Source: Bdellovibrionales bacterium
Lineage (GTDB): Bacteria; Bdellovibrionota; Bdellovibrionia; Bdellovibrionales; UBA1609
DNA: 64,000 nucleotides
Assembly (NCBI GenBank): GCA_019637855.1
Contig: JAHBUX010000001.1
Coordinates: forward strand, 643,337 to 707,336
Direction of reading: 5' to 3'
Part shown: in pieces, positions 30,331-38,832 of the stretch
Layout of the letters: the number at the start of each line of letters is the position of its first letter
Numbering within the stretch: position 1 is the stretch's first letter
The notes under the pieces: model-generated
Databases searched by the model: none
Told to the model about the DNA's origin: nothing
What the model saw: the letters and a program-made list of their open reading frames with translations, nothing else
Position numbers and translations under genes: made by a program

Positions 30331-31647
30331 CTAGATGTCTTTTTCGTTTTCTAGTTTCTCTTTGGCGACTTCGGTTACCGTGGCTTTATCCATAAGATAA
30401 TTCACCACTTTTTCTTCGGTCACTTGGAACATCAGACGCGAACGACGTTCGGGTTTGCCATAGAACTCATTTAAACGAGCCATTTCGATACCAGTCTGTT
30501 GCGAGTACTCAACAATTTTGGCGTCGACTTCTGCTTTAGTGGCACGCAAGCCTAGCTTGTCGGCCAAAGTGTCGAGCAAGAAGGTCGACTTGACCATAAA
30601 GGTGGCGGACTGTTCGAACTCGCCGCCCCACTTTTTCTTGTACTCTTCGAAGTCACCATCGGCCATGCCTTGCTGTTTCAGGCGACCTTTAAAGTCCTCT
30701 TCCAGTGACTGCTTTTGTTGCTCCACTAAGCTGCGGGGAGCCTCAACCGGATTGGCTTCAACCAGGGCGCGCACGATGCGGTTCTTCACATCTTCTTGGA
30801 TGCGCTTGGTTTCGGATTCTTCGATGTCTTTGCGAATGCGGGCTTTCAAATCATCTAGAGATTGGAAGTCGCCGACCTTTTTGGCTAGGTCGTCATTCAG
30901 TTCCGGCAGGCGTTTTTTCTTCATGCCCGACAGTTTGGTTTGAAAGGTCACCGGTGCGCCGCTCAAGGTGGGTTCGTGGTACGGATCGGGGAACTTGAGG
31001 TTCAAAGTTCGGTTGTCGCCAATGCGCATGCCGAGCAAGCCATCTTCGAAACCTTCGATAAATTGATTGGTACCAATCTCGAGCTGATGTCCCTTTGCAG
31101 AACCATTGGGCAGCGGCTGGCCATTCACGAAACCGTCAAAATCGACTTCGGCCACATCGCCCTTTTCCAGGCCGCGATCTTCGAATACCGGCACCAGTTC
31201 AGCTTGGCCGCTACGGATGTTTTCCAGGATCGACTCGACGCGATCGTTAGGAATTTCTAATTTTTCTTTCATCACCGGAAGACCGTCGTATTTTTTCAAC
31301 TGCACTTCGGGACGCACTTCGAATTCAGCGGTGAAGCCGAAATCTTTGTTTTCCATAATGGGTTCGAAAGAAACCTTCGGGTAGCCCACCGGCTCGAGCT
31401 TATGTTCGTCGAGAGCGTTCTGATACGATTCGTTGATCAGATCGTTCATCACGTCGCTTTTCACCTGCTCGGCATACATCGATTTGATGGTGGCGATCGG
31501 TGCCTTGCCCTGACGGAAACCCTTTATGTTGGCCTTTTTCTGAATTGCCTTATAAACTTTGTCGAATGCTTGTTGGACCTTTTCGGCCGGGATTTGAACG
31601 TTGATTTTACGCGATAAACCTTCAAGCTTATCTACCGTCGATTTCAT
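30331..31647 (-). CDS. tig: Trigger factor, ribosome-associated chaperone and prolyl isomerase
   Basis: 438 residues in the normal three-domain order: ribosome-binding N-domain with the signature GFRQGKAPI (about 42-50), FKBP-type PPIase (about 155-245, with GDVAEVDFDGFVNGQPL), and an alpha-helical C-terminal chaperone region. It binds near the exit tunnel via L23. The ATG follows AAAGGAGAG. It is not next to clpP here (about 10 kb away), although the tig-clpP-clpX-lon order is common in other bacteria. Confidence 0.96.
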   Translation of the reverse strand: MKSTVDKLEGLSRKINVQIPAEKVQQAFDKVYKAIQKKANIKGFRQGKAPIATIKSMYAEQVKSDVMNDLINESYQNALDEHKLEPVGYPKVSFEPIMENKDFGFTAEFEVRPEVQLKKYDGLPVMKEKLEIPNDRVESILENIRSGQAELVPVFEDRGLEKGDVAEVDFDGFVNGQPLPNGSAKGHQLEIGTNQFIEGFEDGLLGMRIGDNRTLNLKFPDPYHEPTLSGAPVTFQTKLSGMKKKRLPELNDDLAKKVGDFQSLDDLKARIRKDIEESETKRIQEDVKNRIVRALVEANPVEAPRSLVEQQKQSLEEDFKGRLKQQGMADGDFEEYKKKWGGEFEQSATFMVKSTFLLDTLADKLGLRATKAEVDAKIVEYSQQTGIEMARLNEFYGKPERRSRLMFQVTEEKVVNYLMDKATVTEVAKEKLENEKDI

Positions 31648-31740: not shown

Positions 31741-32589
31741 ATGATTCACTTAATTTCAGGCAAGGGCGGTGTCGGCAAATCCACTGTGGCTGCGGCTTTG
31801 GCGTGGCACCTGGCCGCCAACGGACGGCGTACGCTTTTGGTGGAGTTAGGCGATCGCAGCTACTTCCGCCATGTCTTTCAAGCTGATGTGGGGGCACATC
31901 CAGTTCAGATCAATAGCCATCTGACGGTCACCCGTTGGGAGGGCGAGGTATGCTTGAAAGAGTATCTTCTTCATTTGATCAAAATCGAACGCGTAGTGAA
32001 TTTGTTTTTCGACAATAAGGTGATGAAGGCCTTGGTGCAGGCTGCCCCAGCGCTTAAAGAGCTGGCGTTGCTGGGCAAGATCACCAGCGGCGTGCGCCGG
32101 ATCGGCCCCGCCTTGCCTTACGATGAGATCGTGGTCGACACCTACGCCACCGGGCACTTTCGCGCTTTGTGGCGTGCCCCTATGGGACTGGCCGAGGCGA
32201 TTCCGTTCGGGCCGATGGGAGAGCAGTCGCGCGCGATCGTGGCCGCGATGAAAAACCCCGAGCAAGTGCGCTACTACGTGGTGATGATTCCCGAAGAGCT
32301 TCCGGTGACCGAGGGGTTGGAGCTGGCGCGCGATATTCAAAACGAGCTCGAGCAACAACCGCACTTGGTTTTGAACCGCTGGCTCGAGAGCCCGCTGCGG
32401 CTGGAGCAGCTCAAAGCTTTTCATGGCCACGGTTTTGCCGACTATCTTTCCGTTTTACTGGAGCGGCAAAACCATTCATGTAAAACCGCAGAGAGTCGCG
32501 GACTGCCGTTTGCGCGCCTGCCATGGCTGTTCACCAACAACGTTTCCGAACGCATCGCTAAGCTGGCGCCACACATGGAGGCGCTATGA
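31741..32589 (+). CDS. ArsA/Get3-like ATPase, first of a pair
   Basis: 282 residues from the ATG at 31741, which has AGGAG 7 nt upstream; a GTG at 31720 has no ribosome site. The deviant Walker A ISGKGGVGKST keeps the signature lysine, and switch VDTYATGHFRAL matches the DTAPTGHT motif of ArsA/Get3. No Get3 CxxC zinc pair and no arsenite cysteine triad is present. The nearest analogues I know are the paired actinobacterial ATPases Rv3679/Rv3680. It overlaps the second ATPase by 4 nt, so a heterodimer is likely. Confidence 0.85.
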   Translation: MIHLISGKGGVGKSTVAAALAWHLAANGRRTLLVELGDRSYFRHVFQADVGAHPVQINSHLTVTRWEGEVCLKEYLLHLIKIERVVNLFFDNKVMKALVQAAPALKELALLGKITSGVRRIGPALPYDEIVVDTYATGHFRALWRAPMGLAEAIPFGPMGEQSRAIVAAMKNPEQVRYYVVMIPEELPVTEGLELARDIQNELEQQPHLVLNRWLESPLRLEQLKAFHGHGFADYLSVLLERQNHSCKTAESRGLPFARLPWLFTNNVSERIAKLAPHMEAL

Positions 32590-33677
32590 TTGATCTGCTT
32601 AAGCGCCATCGCGTGTTGATCTGCGCCGGCACAGGTGGCGTTGGCAAAACTTCTTTGTCAGCAAGTCTCGGAGTGTTGGCGGCGCAGTCCGGCTTGCGCA
32701 CTTTGGTTCTGACCATCGATCCCGCACACCGCTTGGCTCAGGCTTTGGGTTTGGAGAAGCAGGCGGGAGTCGACGTGCCTGTACCGGCGGTGCCTGGCTT
32801 ACACGCCTGCATGATCGATCCGCGCAGCGAGTTCGATGAATTCGTGCTGGGTTCGGTCGACAACACGATTGCCAAAGGGCTGTTCAACAACCGCTTGTAT
32901 CAGCAACTGGTGTCCAATTTGAATGGCAGTCAAGAGTTCACCTCACTAGTGCGGTTGTTGAAGTCCGTGCGTGATCCGAACTACGACTTGGTTATTCTTG
33001 ATACGCCACCGACCCAGAACGCAGTGGATTTCCTTAAGGCTCCTGAGCGACTGTACGCGCTTTTCCAAGACACAGTGATTGGATGGTTCGCGCATCCCGA
33101 AAAAGAAGAGAGCTTTATCAAACGCACTCTGCATCGCGGCACCCGCCTAGTGACCACGGCGCTTGAAGCGGTGACAGGCAGTAAGTTTATCGCAGAGCTA
33201 AAAGATTTCTTCACGCATATCTCTCATCTGCGCGGCCGCATCTCTGAGATCAGCTGGCAGGTGGGCGATTTGCTGCATGCGGAATCCACAGGGTTTATTT
33301 TGGTCACCGGATTCGACGAGACCAAGTTGAAGGAAGCGCTCGAGTTCCAGGCCGATCTGCAGGGGGAAAACCTGCATTTGCGGGCCGTGATTGTGAACCG
33401 CTGGTTTCCCGAATGGAGTGAAGGTTCACACCAGTGGTCGGCGGAATGGTCGCATAGTGCCGACTTTAAAGAGCTTAAGGAGTTTTACGAACGTTTTTCC
33501 GAGTTTTTCCGTCAACGGCAGGAAGCCTATGACCGTTTTGTGCATCACCTAGGACAAACGGGCGCCGATCCATCCCCCGTCTTAAAGCTGCCGGATTTTA
33601 AAAATACGGTGCAGGGGATTGAGGATTTAACCCGGGTCGCAACGACCATAAACGAGAAATGGAGATCTTTGCCATGA
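32586..33677 (+). CDS. ArsA/Get3-like ATPase, second of a pair
   Basis: 363 residues. P-loop CAGTGGVGKTS has Thr where the signature lysine normally stands, so it may depend on its partner for catalysis. Other motifs are LTIDPAHRLAQALG, the switch LDTPPTQNAVDFL (like the DTPPS..ALDFL form of actinobacterial partners) and VIVNRWFP. The larger size reflects a helical insertion (about 100-215) that in Get3 relatives forms the client-binding groove. ATGA overlaps on both sides. Confidence 0.86.
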   Translation: MIDLLKRHRVLICAGTGGVGKTSLSASLGVLAAQSGLRTLVLTIDPAHRLAQALGLEKQAGVDVPVPAVPGLHACMIDPRSEFDEFVLGSVDNTIAKGLFNNRLYQQLVSNLNGSQEFTSLVRLLKSVRDPNYDLVILDTPPTQNAVDFLKAPERLYALFQDTVIGWFAHPEKEESFIKRTLHRGTRLVTTALEAVTGSKFIAELKDFFTHISHLRGRISEISWQVGDLLHAESTGFILVTGFDETKLKEALEFQADLQGENLHLRAVIVNRWFPEWSEGSHQWSAEWSHSADFKELKEFYERFSEFFRQRQEAYDRFVHHLGQTGADPSPVLKLPDFKNTVQGIEDLTRVATTINEKWRSLP

Positions 33678-34726
33678 AGATACGAGCCTTATGGACGCTG
33701 GCCTTCTGCCTACTGTCCGCCTGCGCGAGCCAATCCAAGATCGAGCAAACGGAATTCCAAGATGAAAACCATCCTGATTTCGGCCGCGGTTTGAAAGCGC
33801 TTGAACGAGAGGACTATGGAACGGCCGCCTCGATTTTCGATCGTCTGCTTGTGCAGAGTCCGGCCAGCGAGATGGATCTGGTGACCAGTTTTAATTCGGG
33901 CAATGCTTACGAGGGACTGGGAAATTGCAACAAAGCCAGCGAACGTTATCGTGAAGTCGTGCGGGGTTCGGCAGGCAAGTTTCCGGGCATCGAGGCGCAA
34001 GCCCTTTATCGTCTAAGCCTAACCTATGAATGTCTGGGACAAGATACCAAAACCGTGACCTCTTTACTCGATGCCAAGAAACGCGAAAAGCAGTTGCCGA
34101 TGGAGGTGGCGCGCGCCGAGATTCCCGCCCGCTTAGCGGCGGCCTATTCGCGATTGGGCAACAAGGCCAAAGCGCTCGAATACTTCAATGAGGCCAGCGA
34201 GGGTTTGAAATCGATTGCCGGAAACGGCAGTACGCCGCGCGCCCAAAAAGAAGCTCTCGGCAAAACTTTGTTCTACATGGGGCATTTGAATCCGGCACAA
34301 AAGCTAGCGGAAGTGGAACCGATCGGCTACTTGCAGGCGCTCTCTATGCAGCAACCCTATTTGCTACAGGCGGTGGAGATGGGGCATCAGGTGTGGTCGC
34401 GCAAAGCCGCCGAGGATTTGAATATGGCCTATGACAATATGCTGCGTTTTCAAATTGCCGACCCTGAAAAACGCAATCAGTTCTACACGCGGGCGTTACA
34501 GGTGATCGGTGAGCTGCGCAAGATTCGCTTGCCGGACGCTGGCAAGGCCGAAGATGAGGTCTTCGCTAAAGTGGATCGCACCGAAAGGCGCATCCAAAAT
34601 GAAATTGCCACGATTGCCGAGACCACGCGCCTGACTCCGGATGCGGAGAAGCGCGAGGGCTTGCGCCGCCAAGGCCGACCGGTAGACCCTAGAACCAAAC
34701 CCCCGGTGAAACGGATAAAAAAATGA
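33674..34726 (+). CDS. TPR-repeat lipoprotein
   Basis: Start chosen at the ATG at 33674, which overlaps the upstream stop as ATGA and has GGAG 9 nt before it; a start at 33659 lacks support. Signal peptide with lipobox LSAC (MKIRALWTLAFCLLSAC). Mature protein with tetratricopeptide-like repeats: RGLKALEREDYGTAASIFD, FNSGNAYEGLGNCNKASERY, ALYRLSLTYECLGQD and RLAAAYSRLGNKAKALEYF (about 40-190), then a helical region. No enzymatic motif. It is probably an outer- or inner-leaflet anchored scaffold in the five-gene ATPase operon. Confidence 0.82.
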   Translation: MKIRALWTLAFCLLSACASQSKIEQTEFQDENHPDFGRGLKALEREDYGTAASIFDRLLVQSPASEMDLVTSFNSGNAYEGLGNCNKASERYREVVRGSAGKFPGIEAQALYRLSLTYECLGQDTKTVTSLLDAKKREKQLPMEVARAEIPARLAAAYSRLGNKAKALEYFNEASEGLKSIAGNGSTPRAQKEALGKTLFYMGHLNPAQKLAEVEPIGYLQALSMQQPYLLQAVEMGHQVWSRKAAEDLNMAYDNMLRFQIADPEKRNQFYTRALQVIGELRKIRLPDAGKAEDEVFAKVDRTERRIQNEIATIAETTRLTPDAEKREGLRRQGRPVDPRTKPPVKRIKK

Positions 34727-35433
34727 TCTCGGATTTCCGCTCGGGCCTGACCTTCTGGTGGCGTGGATGGGGGCATCTCCTGAAGCATCGCTCGCTTCTT
34801 TCGGTGGCCATCATGCCGCTGATTCTGTCGGGGCTTTTTGCGTTCGGTTTTGTGTGGTTGATCTTTTCCTATCTGCCGTTCTGGGTGCATAGCCTGATCG
34901 GCGCCGTAATCGGGATCGCCGCCGGATTCTGGTACGATCTGATTTACTATCCACTGATCATCGGCGGCGGTTTGGTGGTCTTTGTCGCTGCTCTCTACGT
35001 CAGTTTTTTACTTTTGCGTTTGGTGGCGGTTCCGTTTTACGCGCTACTGGCGGAGCGTACTCTTAATCAGCTGGGCAAAACGACAGATACCTCCTGGCCG
35101 ACTTTGCTTCGCATGTTTCGCTCATGTCTGGTCAAAACTTTGATATTGCTTTTGATCGGCGTGGTTTTATTCGTGTTCTCTTTTGTCCCGGTGCTGAACG
35201 TTCTGGCTATCGCTGCCGCCTTGTTCATCATGGCCTTTGACTGCATGGATTTCGCATTTGAAGCTTGCGGCATGGGCCTAAGAAAGCGCGTGACGTACCT
35301 GATACGCGAGCGTGCGCAATGGTCGGGCATGGCGCTAGGCCTCGCGTTGACTTTGCCCATACCCGGTCTTACGCTCCTCGTGATTCCCGGCGCCGTTGTG
35401 GGTTGCGCCTTGATTTTGAAAGAGCATAAATGA
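34723..35433 (+). CDS. EI24/CysZ-like polytopic membrane protein
   Basis: 236 residues with about six hydrophobic segments (around 25-50, 52-72, 80-105, 140-165, 168-188, 205-230) and the EI24-family pattern FRSGLTFWWRGWGHLLKHRSL at the start and PFYALLAERT in the middle. CysZ, the best-known member, imports sulfate, but many EI24 proteins are untested. It overlaps both neighbours by 4 nt. Followed by gshA, so a sulfur link is possible and unproven. Confidence 0.75.
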   Translation: MISDFRSGLTFWWRGWGHLLKHRSLLSVAIMPLILSGLFAFGFVWLIFSYLPFWVHSLIGAVIGIAAGFWYDLIYYPLIIGGGLVVFVAALYVSFLLLRLVAVPFYALLAERTLNQLGKTTDTSWPTLLRMFRSCLVKTLILLLIGVVLFVFSFVPVLNVLAIAAALFIMAFDCMDFAFEACGMGLRKRVTYLIRERAQWSGMALGLALTLPIPGLTLLVIPGAVVGCALILKEHK

Positions 35434-36689
35434 ATCACGAGCTTCTGCACCGAAAGATCGTCGACAATTGTGAACAGGTTCAATCCTGGTTCAAGGCCAA
35501 GAGCACGGGCTTGGCTTTCCCTTTTTACTCGAGCTTCGATCTGCGCGATGCCGGTTTTAAGCTAGGTCCGGTGGACGCCAATATTTTCCCGGCGGGTTTC
35601 AATAACATCTGCCGCGTCGATCGCGACAACTCCATGGAAGTGGCCAAAGAGTTTTTAGATAGCCACTACTCCACCGATACACGCAAAATCCTTCTGCTGA
35701 CAGAGGAGCACACGGGCAATCCCTACTACTGGGACAATGTGCTGGCACTGCAAACCATTTTGCAAGGCGCCGGTCGAGAAGTGCGCCTGGCTGTGCCGAA
35801 GCCGTTGGAAGCTCCGCTGCAGCTCACCAGTGCTTCCGGAACAGCGGTGACTGTGGCATCCGCCATCCGCAATGGGGGCGGCGTGGACATCGACGGCTTC
35901 CGACCCGATCTGATTATTTCCAACAATGACTTTAGCTTGCAGTATGAAGAGTGGGCCAAAGATCTGGAAACGCCCATGAACCCTCCGCGTGAGCTTGGCT
36001 GGTACCGTCGGCGCAAAGACCGCTTTTTCAAAGTCTATAACGAGTTCGCTGGCGAATTTGCGGATCTGCTCAAATTGGATCCGTGGACCCTGCAGGTCGA
36101 GACCGAAGTTTTCTCTGGTTTTGAAGTGGATGATGAAAACAGTCGTGATCAGCTGGCCGCAGCCGCACAAAAGATCTACGACCGTGTAAAAGCCAAATAT
36201 GCGGCCCACGGAATTTCGCGCGAGCCGTTTCTGTTCGTAAAAAACAATGCGGGTACCTATGGTCTTGGCGTCATCCAGGTAAGGCACCCTGACGAAATCA
36301 AAGCGTGGAACTACAAAGCCCGCAAAAAAATGAAAGCGGCCAAAGGTGGTCGCGAGATCACAGAGGTGATTATCCAGGAGGGCATCCCCACCACCACATT
36401 GGCGGAGGGTGGGAAGACGGCCGAGCCGGTGATCTACATGATCGGTTGCCAGCTTTCCGGCGGTTTTTTACGCGCCCATGGCGAGAAGGCCGATGACGAT
36501 AGTCTCAATTCGCCCGGTGCGGTTTTTCAGCGCCTATGTGTGGCGGATCTGAATGTGAAGATGGAAGGCTGTCCGATGGAGAACTCCTATGGCTGGGTGG
36601 CCAAACTGGCCTTCTTGTCGGTGGCTCGTGAGGCTAAAGAGTTGGGCGTGGAGTTTAAAAACTACCGCGCCGCGGGGCCTTGTTCCTGA
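35430..36689 (+). CDS. gshA: Glutamate-cysteine ligase, proteobacterial GshA-type family
   Basis: 419 residues matching the distinct GshA family (Pfam GshA type) with PFYSSFDLRDAGFKLGPVDAN, FPAGFNNIC, LLLTEEHTGNPYYWDNV, LIISNNDFSLQYEEW, FLFVKNNAGTYGLGVIQV, and EVIIQEGIPTT. It makes gamma-glutamylcysteine, the first step to glutathione. No gshB is in view. It is the last of five genes joined by 4-nt overlaps. Its 3' end overlaps the convergent protease-like gene by 28 nt. The family call is from memory of its motif pattern. Confidence 0.85.
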   Translation: MNHELLHRKIVDNCEQVQSWFKAKSTGLAFPFYSSFDLRDAGFKLGPVDANIFPAGFNNICRVDRDNSMEVAKEFLDSHYSTDTRKILLLTEEHTGNPYYWDNVLALQTILQGAGREVRLAVPKPLEAPLQLTSASGTAVTVASAIRNGGGVDIDGFRPDLIISNNDFSLQYEEWAKDLETPMNPPRELGWYRRRKDRFFKVYNEFAGEFADLLKLDPWTLQVETEVFSGFEVDDENSRDQLAAAAQKIYDRVKAKYAAHGISREPFLFVKNNAGTYGLGVIQVRHPDEIKAWNYKARKKMKAAKGGREITEVIIQEGIPTTTLAEGGKTAEPVIYMIGCQLSGGFLRAHGEKADDDSLNSPGAVFQRLCVADLNVKMEGCPMENSYGWVAKLAFLSVAREAKELGVEFKNYRAAGPCS

Positions 36690-37966
36690 GTGTCCGTCGC
36701 CATTTGTAACTGCGTGCCCAATGCGAAGCGCACTCGTTCGTAGCGCAAAACTGCAACCACTCCAAGATTGTCGGTGAGTCCTGTCTCGATTTTTCCTTCG
36801 CTTCCAGACACGCCGGTGAGCGGTCCCAAAACCACGGGGCGATCTAGCAATAAACCCGCGATGCTCGTTCCCGCCGGGAAATACAGTGGTGCGCCGGAAG
36901 CGCCCCGCTGTGCATAGGCATTAAAGAAAAAGCGTTGGTAGTTGGGATCGAAGGTCACGATGCCGCGGGTGCGGAGCACGCTCACCGGATCCTTTCGGCG
37001 CCATAGGCCGTCCGCTCCGTCGTAGTATGTGCCGGGAAAACTCAACATCTCCGCGCGTCGGCCAGAGAGCTCTCGTAGCGCATTCGTAGCGCAAGCTAGG
37101 ATGTCATTCGGCCGCAACTCACAACCCTTCACCAGCAGGCGATCCCAGGTCAGATAAAAGAATTTCTTGCCGGCTGAAACAGGCTTGAGCGTGTGTCCCT
37201 CTTTGTCGTCGGTAGCGGGCAGAAAAACAGCCAAGTCTTCCATAGGAGGACCGAATTGAAAATGACTGGCCACAAAGCCTAGGCGTGCGGCCGCAATTCC
37301 GCGGACCTCATGGCTTTCACGGTCAAAAATAAAGGCCTTGTCCATGTGATTTTTAGGGCAGTGATCCGCACTGATCATACGGCTTTGCGCATCGACAAAA
37401 AATGTGCAGGACCGAGTCACGCCTACAGTGAGTGGCAGATCATCGATCGCGTCACCCTGGATAAATTCTGATTCGGCTAAACTGCGATCGATCACAAAAC
37501 AAATTTGGAATCCGCCCTGTCTATACGAACGCATGTGGCAGGTCAGCGCGTAACGGCGCTCGTTCAGCTGTAAGTTCGCCTGCGCTAGCTTTTCAATGAT
37601 GGGGGCGCGCCCTTCCTCTTGGCTCACGATCATTTGTTTGGCCAAGGGACGTAATTCTTCGTTCACAGTCTGCACAAGATCGGGGTAGGACCCCTCACAT
37701 TGGGTGATAAATTTCTCACCCATCTGTGCACACGAGCGAATCACCAGACCTGAGCGGTAGAGTTGTGAACTTTCTAACCGTGCGTACGAGACCAGTTGTC
37801 GTACTTCCGGGCCGACCATGCTGGAAGGCTTCGTCGGCGTGTTCCATACGAAAGATTTTTGCCATTGATAAAAACAGCCGCGGAGTGCCTCCGCGTCTCC
37901 GGCGCAATCGGCCAAAGCCGTTGGCGCAGCGAAGAGCAGAGAAAAAAGGAGGGCAGTTAAACGCAT
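36662..37966 (-). CDS. Exported protein with trypsin-like (chymotrypsin-fold) serine protease features
   Basis: Start set at the ATG at 37966 behind AAAGGA, giving signal peptide MRLTALLFSLLFAAPTALA. A ~140-residue unknown N-terminal region is followed by a trypsin-like pattern in order: CTFFVDAQSRMISADHCP (His region, like TAAHC), MEDLAVFLP (Asp region, like DIALL), and GASGAPLYFPAGTSIAGLL (Ser region, like GxSGxPL..G). The spacing fits a ~240-residue protease domain. The fold and triad are inferred from these three islands only. It could also be an inactive relative. Confidence 0.65.
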   Translation of the reverse strand: MRLTALLFSLLFAAPTALADCAGDAEALRGCFYQWQKSFVWNTPTKPSSMVGPEVRQLVSYARLESSQLYRSGLVIRSCAQMGEKFITQCEGSYPDLVQTVNEELRPLAKQMIVSQEEGRAPIIEKLAQANLQLNERRYALTCHMRSYRQGGFQICFVIDRSLAESEFIQGDAIDDLPLTVGVTRSCTFFVDAQSRMISADHCPKNHMDKAFIFDRESHEVRGIAAARLGFVASHFQFGPPMEDLAVFLPATDDKEGHTLKPVSAGKKFFYLTWDRLLVKGCELRPNDILACATNALRELSGRRAEMLSFPGTYYDGADGLWRRKDPVSVLRTRGIVTFDPNYQRFFFNAYAQRGASGAPLYFPAGTSIAGLLLDRPVVLGPLTGVSGSEGKIETGLTDNLGVVAVLRYERVRFALGTQLQMATDTQEQGPAAR

Positions 37967-38145
37967 CGCATCCTTTTTCCAGGCAATGCCTCGTTTCGTC
38001 AATTGGCGTTGAAATCATTTCCCGTATTCCGACCTGAAATCAGGTGTTTATAAACAAGTTTTTGAGGTTTAGGGCATTACCTATGATACACCCGACTGGC
38101 CCTGGGTCCATTGTGAAGGGATCGGATTCGCCCGATAATAGAGTT

Positions 38146-38832
38146 ATGCGCCTGTTTTCAATCGCCCTTTTGTTCTTAGCTGCAGTTGGTTTTGCTAACC
38201 ACCTGACCACGCGTTCGTGGGGTGGGGCCGTTTACGTTTACGTGGGGGAGCGCCGCGCTCCGGCCTCCGTGCGTTCGGTCAGCGACTATTCGGCCATCGA
38301 TCGACGCGCTCTTTATCGGTCTATCCATGGTCAGCTAATGTCGACTGCGGGCGCTTCCATCCGCGACGGTGTTGTGGGAGTGCGCTTGGGGCATCCGCTT
38401 ATTCCACGTGAAGAAGGTGGCGGACGTGAGTTTGCCTGCCCAATCGCCGGTCATGTTGGCGTTTACGATCGCGTTGAACTTACGTTTTATGGAACGGGAA
38501 TCACGGCGAGTGGTGAGTCTCCGCTGTTGATTATCGACAATGGTTGTCAGGCCAGTGCGCAACTCGACACGCTTGATACGGTTTGGATTCCCATGCAGAA
38601 AATCATTGCTTTGGGTCCCAAAGATCAAGAGCTAGAGACCGACACGCAACCCCCGATGTATATTCGTCTGCAGAATATTCCTGGTGAATGGCCCGAGAAC
38701 TGGGTGCTGACCGGTGTGCGCTTTTACCGCTCGGACAGTGAAGATCGTGGCATGAGCCTCGACGCTGACAAGCTCAAAGCCGATGCGGCCACCGCTTCAA
38801 TGCTTTCTTTCGAGTGGAAAGTGAAGCGTTAA
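38146..38832 (+). CDS. Exported or membrane-anchored protein, unknown
   Basis: 228 residues from the ATG at 38146, which begins a good signal or anchor (MRLFSIALLFLAAVGFA). The open frame extends upstream to a GTG at 38044 and an ATG at 38083, but those would place ~20-34 hydrophilic residues before the signal. The mature region is beta-rich (VGVYDRVELTFYGTGI, SPLLIIDNGCQ) with no known motif. No clear ribosome site. The stop overlaps the convergent gene by 4 nt. Confidence 0.65.
   Translation: MRLFSIALLFLAAVGFANHLTTRSWGGAVYVYVGERRAPASVRSVSDYSAIDRRALYRSIHGQLMSTAGASIRDGVVGVRLGHPLIPREEGGGREFACPIAGHVGVYDRVELTFYGTGITASGESPLLIIDNGCQASAQLDTLDTVWIPMQKIIALGPKDQELETDTQPPMYIRLQNIPGEWPENWVLTGVRFYRSDSEDRGMSLDADKLKADAATASMLSFEWKVKR

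Follow-up and report, generated by a model that had tools for sequence, protein, structure and literature searches.

The DNA analysed here (the window, 64,000 nucleotides in total) comes from a Bdellovibrionales bacterium (GCA_019637855.1, contig JAHBUX010000001.1), and we have concentrated on positions 31741-36689, where five open reading frames (ORFs) follow each other on the + strand. The first two encode ATPases of the ArsA/Get3 kind, hereafter A1 and A2, and the remaining ones a lipoprotein with tetratricopeptide repeats (TPR), an EI24-family membrane protein and the glutamate-cysteine ligase GshA. Read directly from the sequence, each of the four junctions is an ATGA (a 4-nt overlap), as the initial annotation had described, and an internal scan for promoters and terminators inside the five-gene operon gave none above chance. 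The features are the following.

31741..32589, + strand: A1, BagA-like (Rv3679-like) subunit of 282 aa and proposed lysine donor, with the signature Lys8 kept and the switch-I Asp replaced (VELGDRS); identified by PF02374, NCBIfam, an AlphaFold2 (AF2) model and 6bs3_A
32586..33677, + strand: A2, BagB-like (Rv3680-like) subunit of 363 aa and proposed catalytic subunit, without the signature Lys (GTGGVGKT), with switch-I TIDPA (Asp45) and DTPP kept and a longer helical insert; identified by PF02374, NCBIfam and 6bs3_B
33674..34726, + strand: exported TPR lipoprotein of 350 aa, lipobox Cys17 (LLSAC); identified by TPR_12, an alignment and a fold model
34723..35433, + strand: EI24-family (PF07264) integral membrane protein of 236 aa; identified by Pfam, below the CysZ cut-off
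35430..36689, + strand: GshA, a 419-aa glutamate-cysteine ligase (PF08886/TIGR02049 type); its score exceeds the equivalog cut-off
30331..31647, - strand: trigger factor (Tig), divergent neighbour named from its sequence; context, not a proven part of the system

Identity of the ATPase pair and the distribution of its catalytic residues

Both ATPases score above the gathering cut-off of PF02374 (ArsA_ATPase; 72.9 bits for A1 and 119.5 bits for A2, cut-off 24.3), and they are the sole ORFs in the whole genome that match this model beyond a short P-loop stretch. The best NCBIfam models are BagA for A1 (104.8 bits) and BagB for A2 (197 bits). These scores lie below the equivalog cut-offs of NF053622/NF053621 (400 for A1, 521 for A2), which places the two proteins, judged by sequence, in the wider BagA/BagB class only, and we do not file them as mycobacterial equivalogs. 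Against the PDB, the best match of the A2 sequence is 6bs3_B (1.8e-42), and A1 matches chain A of 6BS3 at 2.1e-20, by sequence slightly behind the two-domain ArsA of L. ferriphilum. The AF2 model of A1 (predicted local distance difference test 94.9) has 6bs3_A as its top fold match. The scores with the Get3/TRC40 model TIGR00345 (64.8 and 113.3, cut-off 135) and the ArsA model TIGR04291 (49.3 and 60, cut-off 650) are lower than required, in the latter case by so much that we have rejected an ArsA pump as the identity of the pair.

A tree of 79 sequences, which drew its relatives from Actinomycetota, Myxococcota, Pseudomonadota and others and did not include the M. tuberculosis proteins themselves, grouped all first subunits in one clade (99/94) and all second subunits in another (100/99), with ArsA outside both. 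The simplest reading would be a single split that predates the phyla sampled. A natural A1-A2 fusion of 869 aa is present in one genome of the phylum (G164; L227, complement 89-2698). The initial annotation had suggested an asymmetric heterodimer related to Rv3679/Rv3680, and the family models, the 6bs3_A fold match, the tree and the fusion all agree with it, so that we regard an A1-A2 heterodimer as very probable. The long open frames of G145, G099 and G095 were ruled out as fusions (A1 and A2 lie there in separate ORFs), and the apparent absence of A2 in G174 is a contig-edge artefact (L233). Two of the pairs, in metagenome-assembled genomes titled Klebsiella pneumoniae and Bifidobacterium breve (L171 and L194), group with Polyangiaceae and Solirubrobacterales, and these titles are probably wrong.

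The motifs are GKGGVGKS and DTYATGH in A1 and GTGGVGKTS and DTPPTQNA in A2, as stated in the initial annotation. It had noted the difference in the lysine but not that the switch-I aspartate is lost reciprocally, the feature that makes the asymmetry of the pair interpretable. The signature lysine is found in 146/146 A1 proteins and 0/152 A2 proteins, whereas the switch-I Asp is present in 152/152 A2 proteins and only 9/146 A1 proteins; 80 of the 152 A2 proteins come from a contig scan whose search pattern partly selects the lysine count. The other 72 were taken from the window or from protein searches and none of them has the signature lysine. The protein-search sets alone give the same picture (Lys in 74/74 A1 vs 0/72 A2, Asp in 4/74 A1 vs 72/72 A2), and so does the M. 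tuberculosis pair (GKGGTGKST and LLVEVEGR in Rv3679, GAGGVGKTT and LTIDPAKR in Rv3680). Since A2 never has the signature lysine, the own pocket of A1 is incomplete in every pair.

In yeast Get3 the switch-I aspartate is Asp57, which we take to be the column scored here, and the D57N change blocks hydrolysis; the signature lysine of Get3 reaches the nucleotide of the other protomer. The signature lysine of MinD likewise acts on the ATP of the other protomer (PMC10482377). PDB 9ns5 is by its title an ATP-bound Get3(D57N) complex, which fits a block of hydrolysis upon loss of this aspartate. Taken together, the residue patterns point to one working composite ATP site, in which the pocket of A2 would be completed by the lysine of A1, and we consider a single hydrolytic site of this kind probable. 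The Lys/Asp split itself may be known already.

The two subunits also differ in the region that carries the helical subdomain. In the A1 model the interval from switch II to the following strand (residues 137-171) holds only two helices, and in A2 the same interval spans, by sequence, about 94 residues. Client binding, if any, would be expected to be lopsided between them. A separate feature of A1 is a conserved ExCLxEYxxHxxK at residues 69-81 (window 31945-31983), with Cys71 kept by 51/74 phylum members and His78 by 42/74; it drops out of the consensus when actinobacterial and other BagA proteins are added.

Conservation of the neighbourhood and the partners of the pair

At Bdellovibrionales loci A1 and A2 are adjacent in 54 of 54 cases. 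Where enough sequence was available, the pair is followed by the TPR gene in 43/44, by gshA in 42/44 and by the EI24 gene in 28/44, and the full five-gene set is kept in only 25/44, since at many loci EI24 is absent or was not recognised. The adjacency and the GshA figure make the operon more than a chance arrangement; it is real and conserved. Within the order, conservation extends over the entire stretch from envC-ctpA to pepA, so that shared gene order is by itself weak evidence of function there. Tig is divergent upstream of A1 at 47/48 loci within the order and at 1/19 outside it, where the flanks are mostly gone and GshA accompanies the pair at 10/19 loci. Among the matches listed, 100/110 genomes with both places listed have gshA on the same strand as the pair and no more than about 4 kb further downstream; outside the order of the window the figure is 30/38. 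These counts rest on the listed places only and are biased towards better-scoring matches. The linkage of GshA with the pair is conserved, which supports this part of the initial annotation.

Outside the order the partners recur in varied combinations, A1-A2-TPR-GshA (L098, L100, L103, L106), A1-A2-GshA (L109, L110), A1-A2-EI24 (L099, L104) and A1-A2-EI24-GshA (L105). Beyond the phylum the pair was found in Actinomycetota, Myxococcota and a few Pseudomonadota, Thermodesulfobacteriota and Acidobacteriota records, and none of the outside-phylum loci examined has GshA beside it. In three Myxococcaceae/Archangiaceae loci (L142, L159, L177) the pair is followed by a homologous TPR lipoprotein. Among 40 close relatives there were six in which no pair was found, and five of these (G004, G012, G016, G017, G020) have small genomes of 1.2-2.0 Mb. 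This suggests loss with genome reduction, although some of the small genomes are incomplete.

The TPR protein had been proposed as an adaptor of the ATPases. Its lipobox Cys17 is invariant in 29/29 aligned homologues, including one myxobacterial (a scan with a strict lipobox pattern recovered 34/54), and by this signature the mature protein lies outside the cytoplasm as an exported lipoprotein. It could not meet the cytosolic ATPases in its mature form, and we have dropped the adaptor role; it could instead be a client or an envelope partner of the pair. Its model is an all-helical TPR array with generic TPR proteins as the only structural matches. Outside the order, the weak TPR matches (28-30 bits) have N-termini that look by eye like signal peptides, with no clear lipobox. 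The EI24 protein scores 64.9 bits with PF07264 (cut-off 32). With the CysZ model NF003433 it reaches 64.2 against a cut-off of 140, and on this score we have rejected a CysZ/sulfate link. The hint at sulfur that had been drawn from a CysZ-like protein is weak, the more so as EI24 is missing from much of the order.

GshA is a good assignment, above the thresholds of PF08886 (431.5 bits, cut-off 25) and of the equivalog TIGR02049 (347.2 bits, cut-off 293.9). The N-domain of canonical GshB (PF02951) is absent from this genome and from 55/59 genomes of the order, and the sole PF02955 match here was rejected as GshB since it is RimK (452.9 bits vs 331). The search for the eukaryote-type glutathione synthetase PF03917 had no match, in a run where the control also matched nowhere. 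A conserved GshA without canonical GshB suggests either that gamma-glutamylcysteine serves as the thiol or that there is an unknown GshB; the alternatives to gamma-glutamylcysteine that we infer are a GshB of non-canonical type and the import of glutathione. A glyoxalase II homologue and six glutathione S-transferase N-domain matches in the genome make thiol-dependent detoxification likely.

Beyond gshA, a large convergent ORF with a signal-peptide-like start (36662-38002, - strand) overlaps its 3' end by 28 bp, and a neighbour search found no homologue at the same place in relatives. Between gshA and pepA, a 262-aa protein of unknown function (38044-38832) is kept across most of the Bdellovibrionales order.

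Possible function of the operon

The best overall explanation, to which we give about an even chance, is a single-site heterodimer of the BagA/BagB class acting as a chaperone or targeting factor for envelope proteins under thiol or electrophile stress. A1 and A2, both of the Get3/ArsA fold, would form an obligate heterodimer, as homology, the one ancient split, adjacency and the natural fusion would have it. Its sole complete interface ATP site would be the A2 pocket, which has a P-loop, a switch-I aspartate (Asp45) and a switch II of its own and which Lys8 of A1 would close in trans. The A1 pocket retains the P-loop lysine, so that nucleotide probably binds there, but it has neither a switch-I Asp nor a lysine from A2. 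Binding and hydrolysis of ATP at the single site would drive the dimer between open and closed states, as in Get3, and a hydrophobic client would be held and then released; most of the binding would fall to the long helical insert of A2, that of A1 being short. The operon would co-produce the EI24 protein, the TPR lipoprotein and the thiol-forming GshA with the pair, which might protect or deliver envelope proteins under thiol or electrophile stress, the weakest step. Taken on its own, a chaperone or targeting role for hydrophobic or envelope proteins is possible, at slightly less than even chances. PMC10597346, citing Whitaker 2020, links mycobacterial bagAB to glycerol and nitric oxide toxicity, against which it is reported to protect, and this is why a real functional tie with thiol stress appears plausible, if unproven and somewhat doubtful. 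A bolder version, with bacterial Get3-like heterodimers in general as single-site machines, BagA as lysine donor only to the sole active BagB pocket, and a Bdellovibrionota machine dedicated to envelope proteins and tied through the shared operon to a GshB-less, gamma-glutamylcysteine-based thiol system, is rather unlikely.

The pair might instead act on thiol homeostasis or electrophile detoxification itself, not on membrane proteins, with GshA as its core partner. GshA is the most persistent linkage outside the order (among the matches listed), and the mycobacterial insults just mentioned are both met by low-molecular-weight thiols, but none of the outside-phylum loci has GshA beside the pair, the pair persists in genomes where no GshA was found (e.g., family f13), and ATPases of the Get3 fold that carry helical inserts act as a rule on hydrophobic clients, so we hold this to be unlikely. 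Quite improbable, in our opinion, is an ArsA-like motor that energises the EI24 protein as a permease for an anion or a thiol-related solute. It has been proposed that homologues of ArsA power a number of unrelated transporters (PMC2963123), and EI24 follows A2 in families outside the order too (L099, L104, L105, once with a 4-nt overlap). Yet next to the pair it is missing or unrecognised at 16 of the 44 order loci that offered enough sequence and at all loci outside the phylum, the pair has neither CxxC nor clustered cysteines, the ArsA scores (49 and 60 vs 650) are far too low and the CysZ score is below its cut-off. An operon shared by history only, with no functional tie between the ATPases and GshA, EI24 or TPR, would suit the conservation of everything from envC-ctpA to pepA within the order. 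It is made improbable by the loci outside the order, where flanks such as Tig are lost and GshA often stays, where the partners each recur in varied combinations, and by the TPR lipoprotein after the pair in Myxococcaceae.

Several observations weigh against the chaperone explanation and its single ATP site. Work by Whitaker in 2020 is said to have found intact ATP-binding motifs necessary in both subunits, so that the A1 pocket would matter at least for binding. The M. tuberculosis double deletion of Hu (2019) reportedly had no conspicuous growth defect, leaving the function open, and the same work, the structure paper, is said to have presented the pair as a Get3-like class that was new and had no assigned function. 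Loss of the signature lysine is not always inactivating in the superfamily (MSMEG_3743, TadZ; PMC10482377), and the A2 count includes the partly selected proteins mentioned above. The CxxC zinc motif is absent from both sequences. There is no strict dependence between the pair and GshA, since one can be kept in a genome without the other. No client of the pair has been identified, and we found no biochemistry of it for this species in the literature. Searches on its role in Bdellovibrio or Myxococcus gave nothing useful, and Castillo and Saier, whose list includes an ArsA homologue of B. bacteriovorus, mention neither glutathione nor TPR with it.

What makes the operon relevant is that BagA/BagB ATPases have a solved structure and no agreed function that we could find in the literature. 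An operon that occurs across the phylum and joins the pair to GshA, a membrane protein and a lipoprotein that is exported offers a genetic handle outside mycobacteria, and the residue split leads to a clear-cut prediction for mutagenesis (a single site, with the lysine supplied in trans) applicable to nearly all members. With GshA conserved and canonical GshB lacking, it is also of interest which thiol is in use in these bacteria.

Comparison with known systems

The BagA/BagB class and its heterodimer structure (6BS3) are known; the complementary split, the natural fusion and the GshA linkage are the new elements here, and the literature consulted contained no description of the setting with GshA, the TPR lipoprotein and EI24. 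The pair shares with M. tuberculosis BagA/BagB (Rv3679/Rv3680; PDB 6BS3-6BS5) the adjacent genes, the Get3/ArsA fold, heterodimeric there, the restriction of the signature Lys to BagA and of the switch-I Asp to BagB, and the two clades into which both subunits fall with their actinobacterial homologues. It differs in scoring below the equivalog cut-offs and in its shorter BagA-like subunit, and actinobacterial pairs adjoin WhiB and a transglycosylase-domain protein instead of GshA, the TPR lipoprotein and EI24. Get3/TRC40 has the same fold, deviant Walker A, switch regions and helical subdomain (in A2), but is a homodimer, whereas the window pair is a predicted heterodimer with split determinants, no CxxC zinc motif and no known tail-anchored clients or Get1/2 partners. 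ArsA resembles it in the fold and in having two unlike ATPase halves, a likeness extended by the fusion at L227; however, both ArsA halves keep GKGGVGKT/S, the scores here are far below the ArsA cut-offs and no ars genes were seen at this locus. A further related arrangement is that of the Myxococcaceae/Archangiaceae clusters (L142, L159, L177), in which the pair precedes a homologous TPR lipoprotein, without GshA or EI24 and with an M48-type protease downstream (L142, L159).

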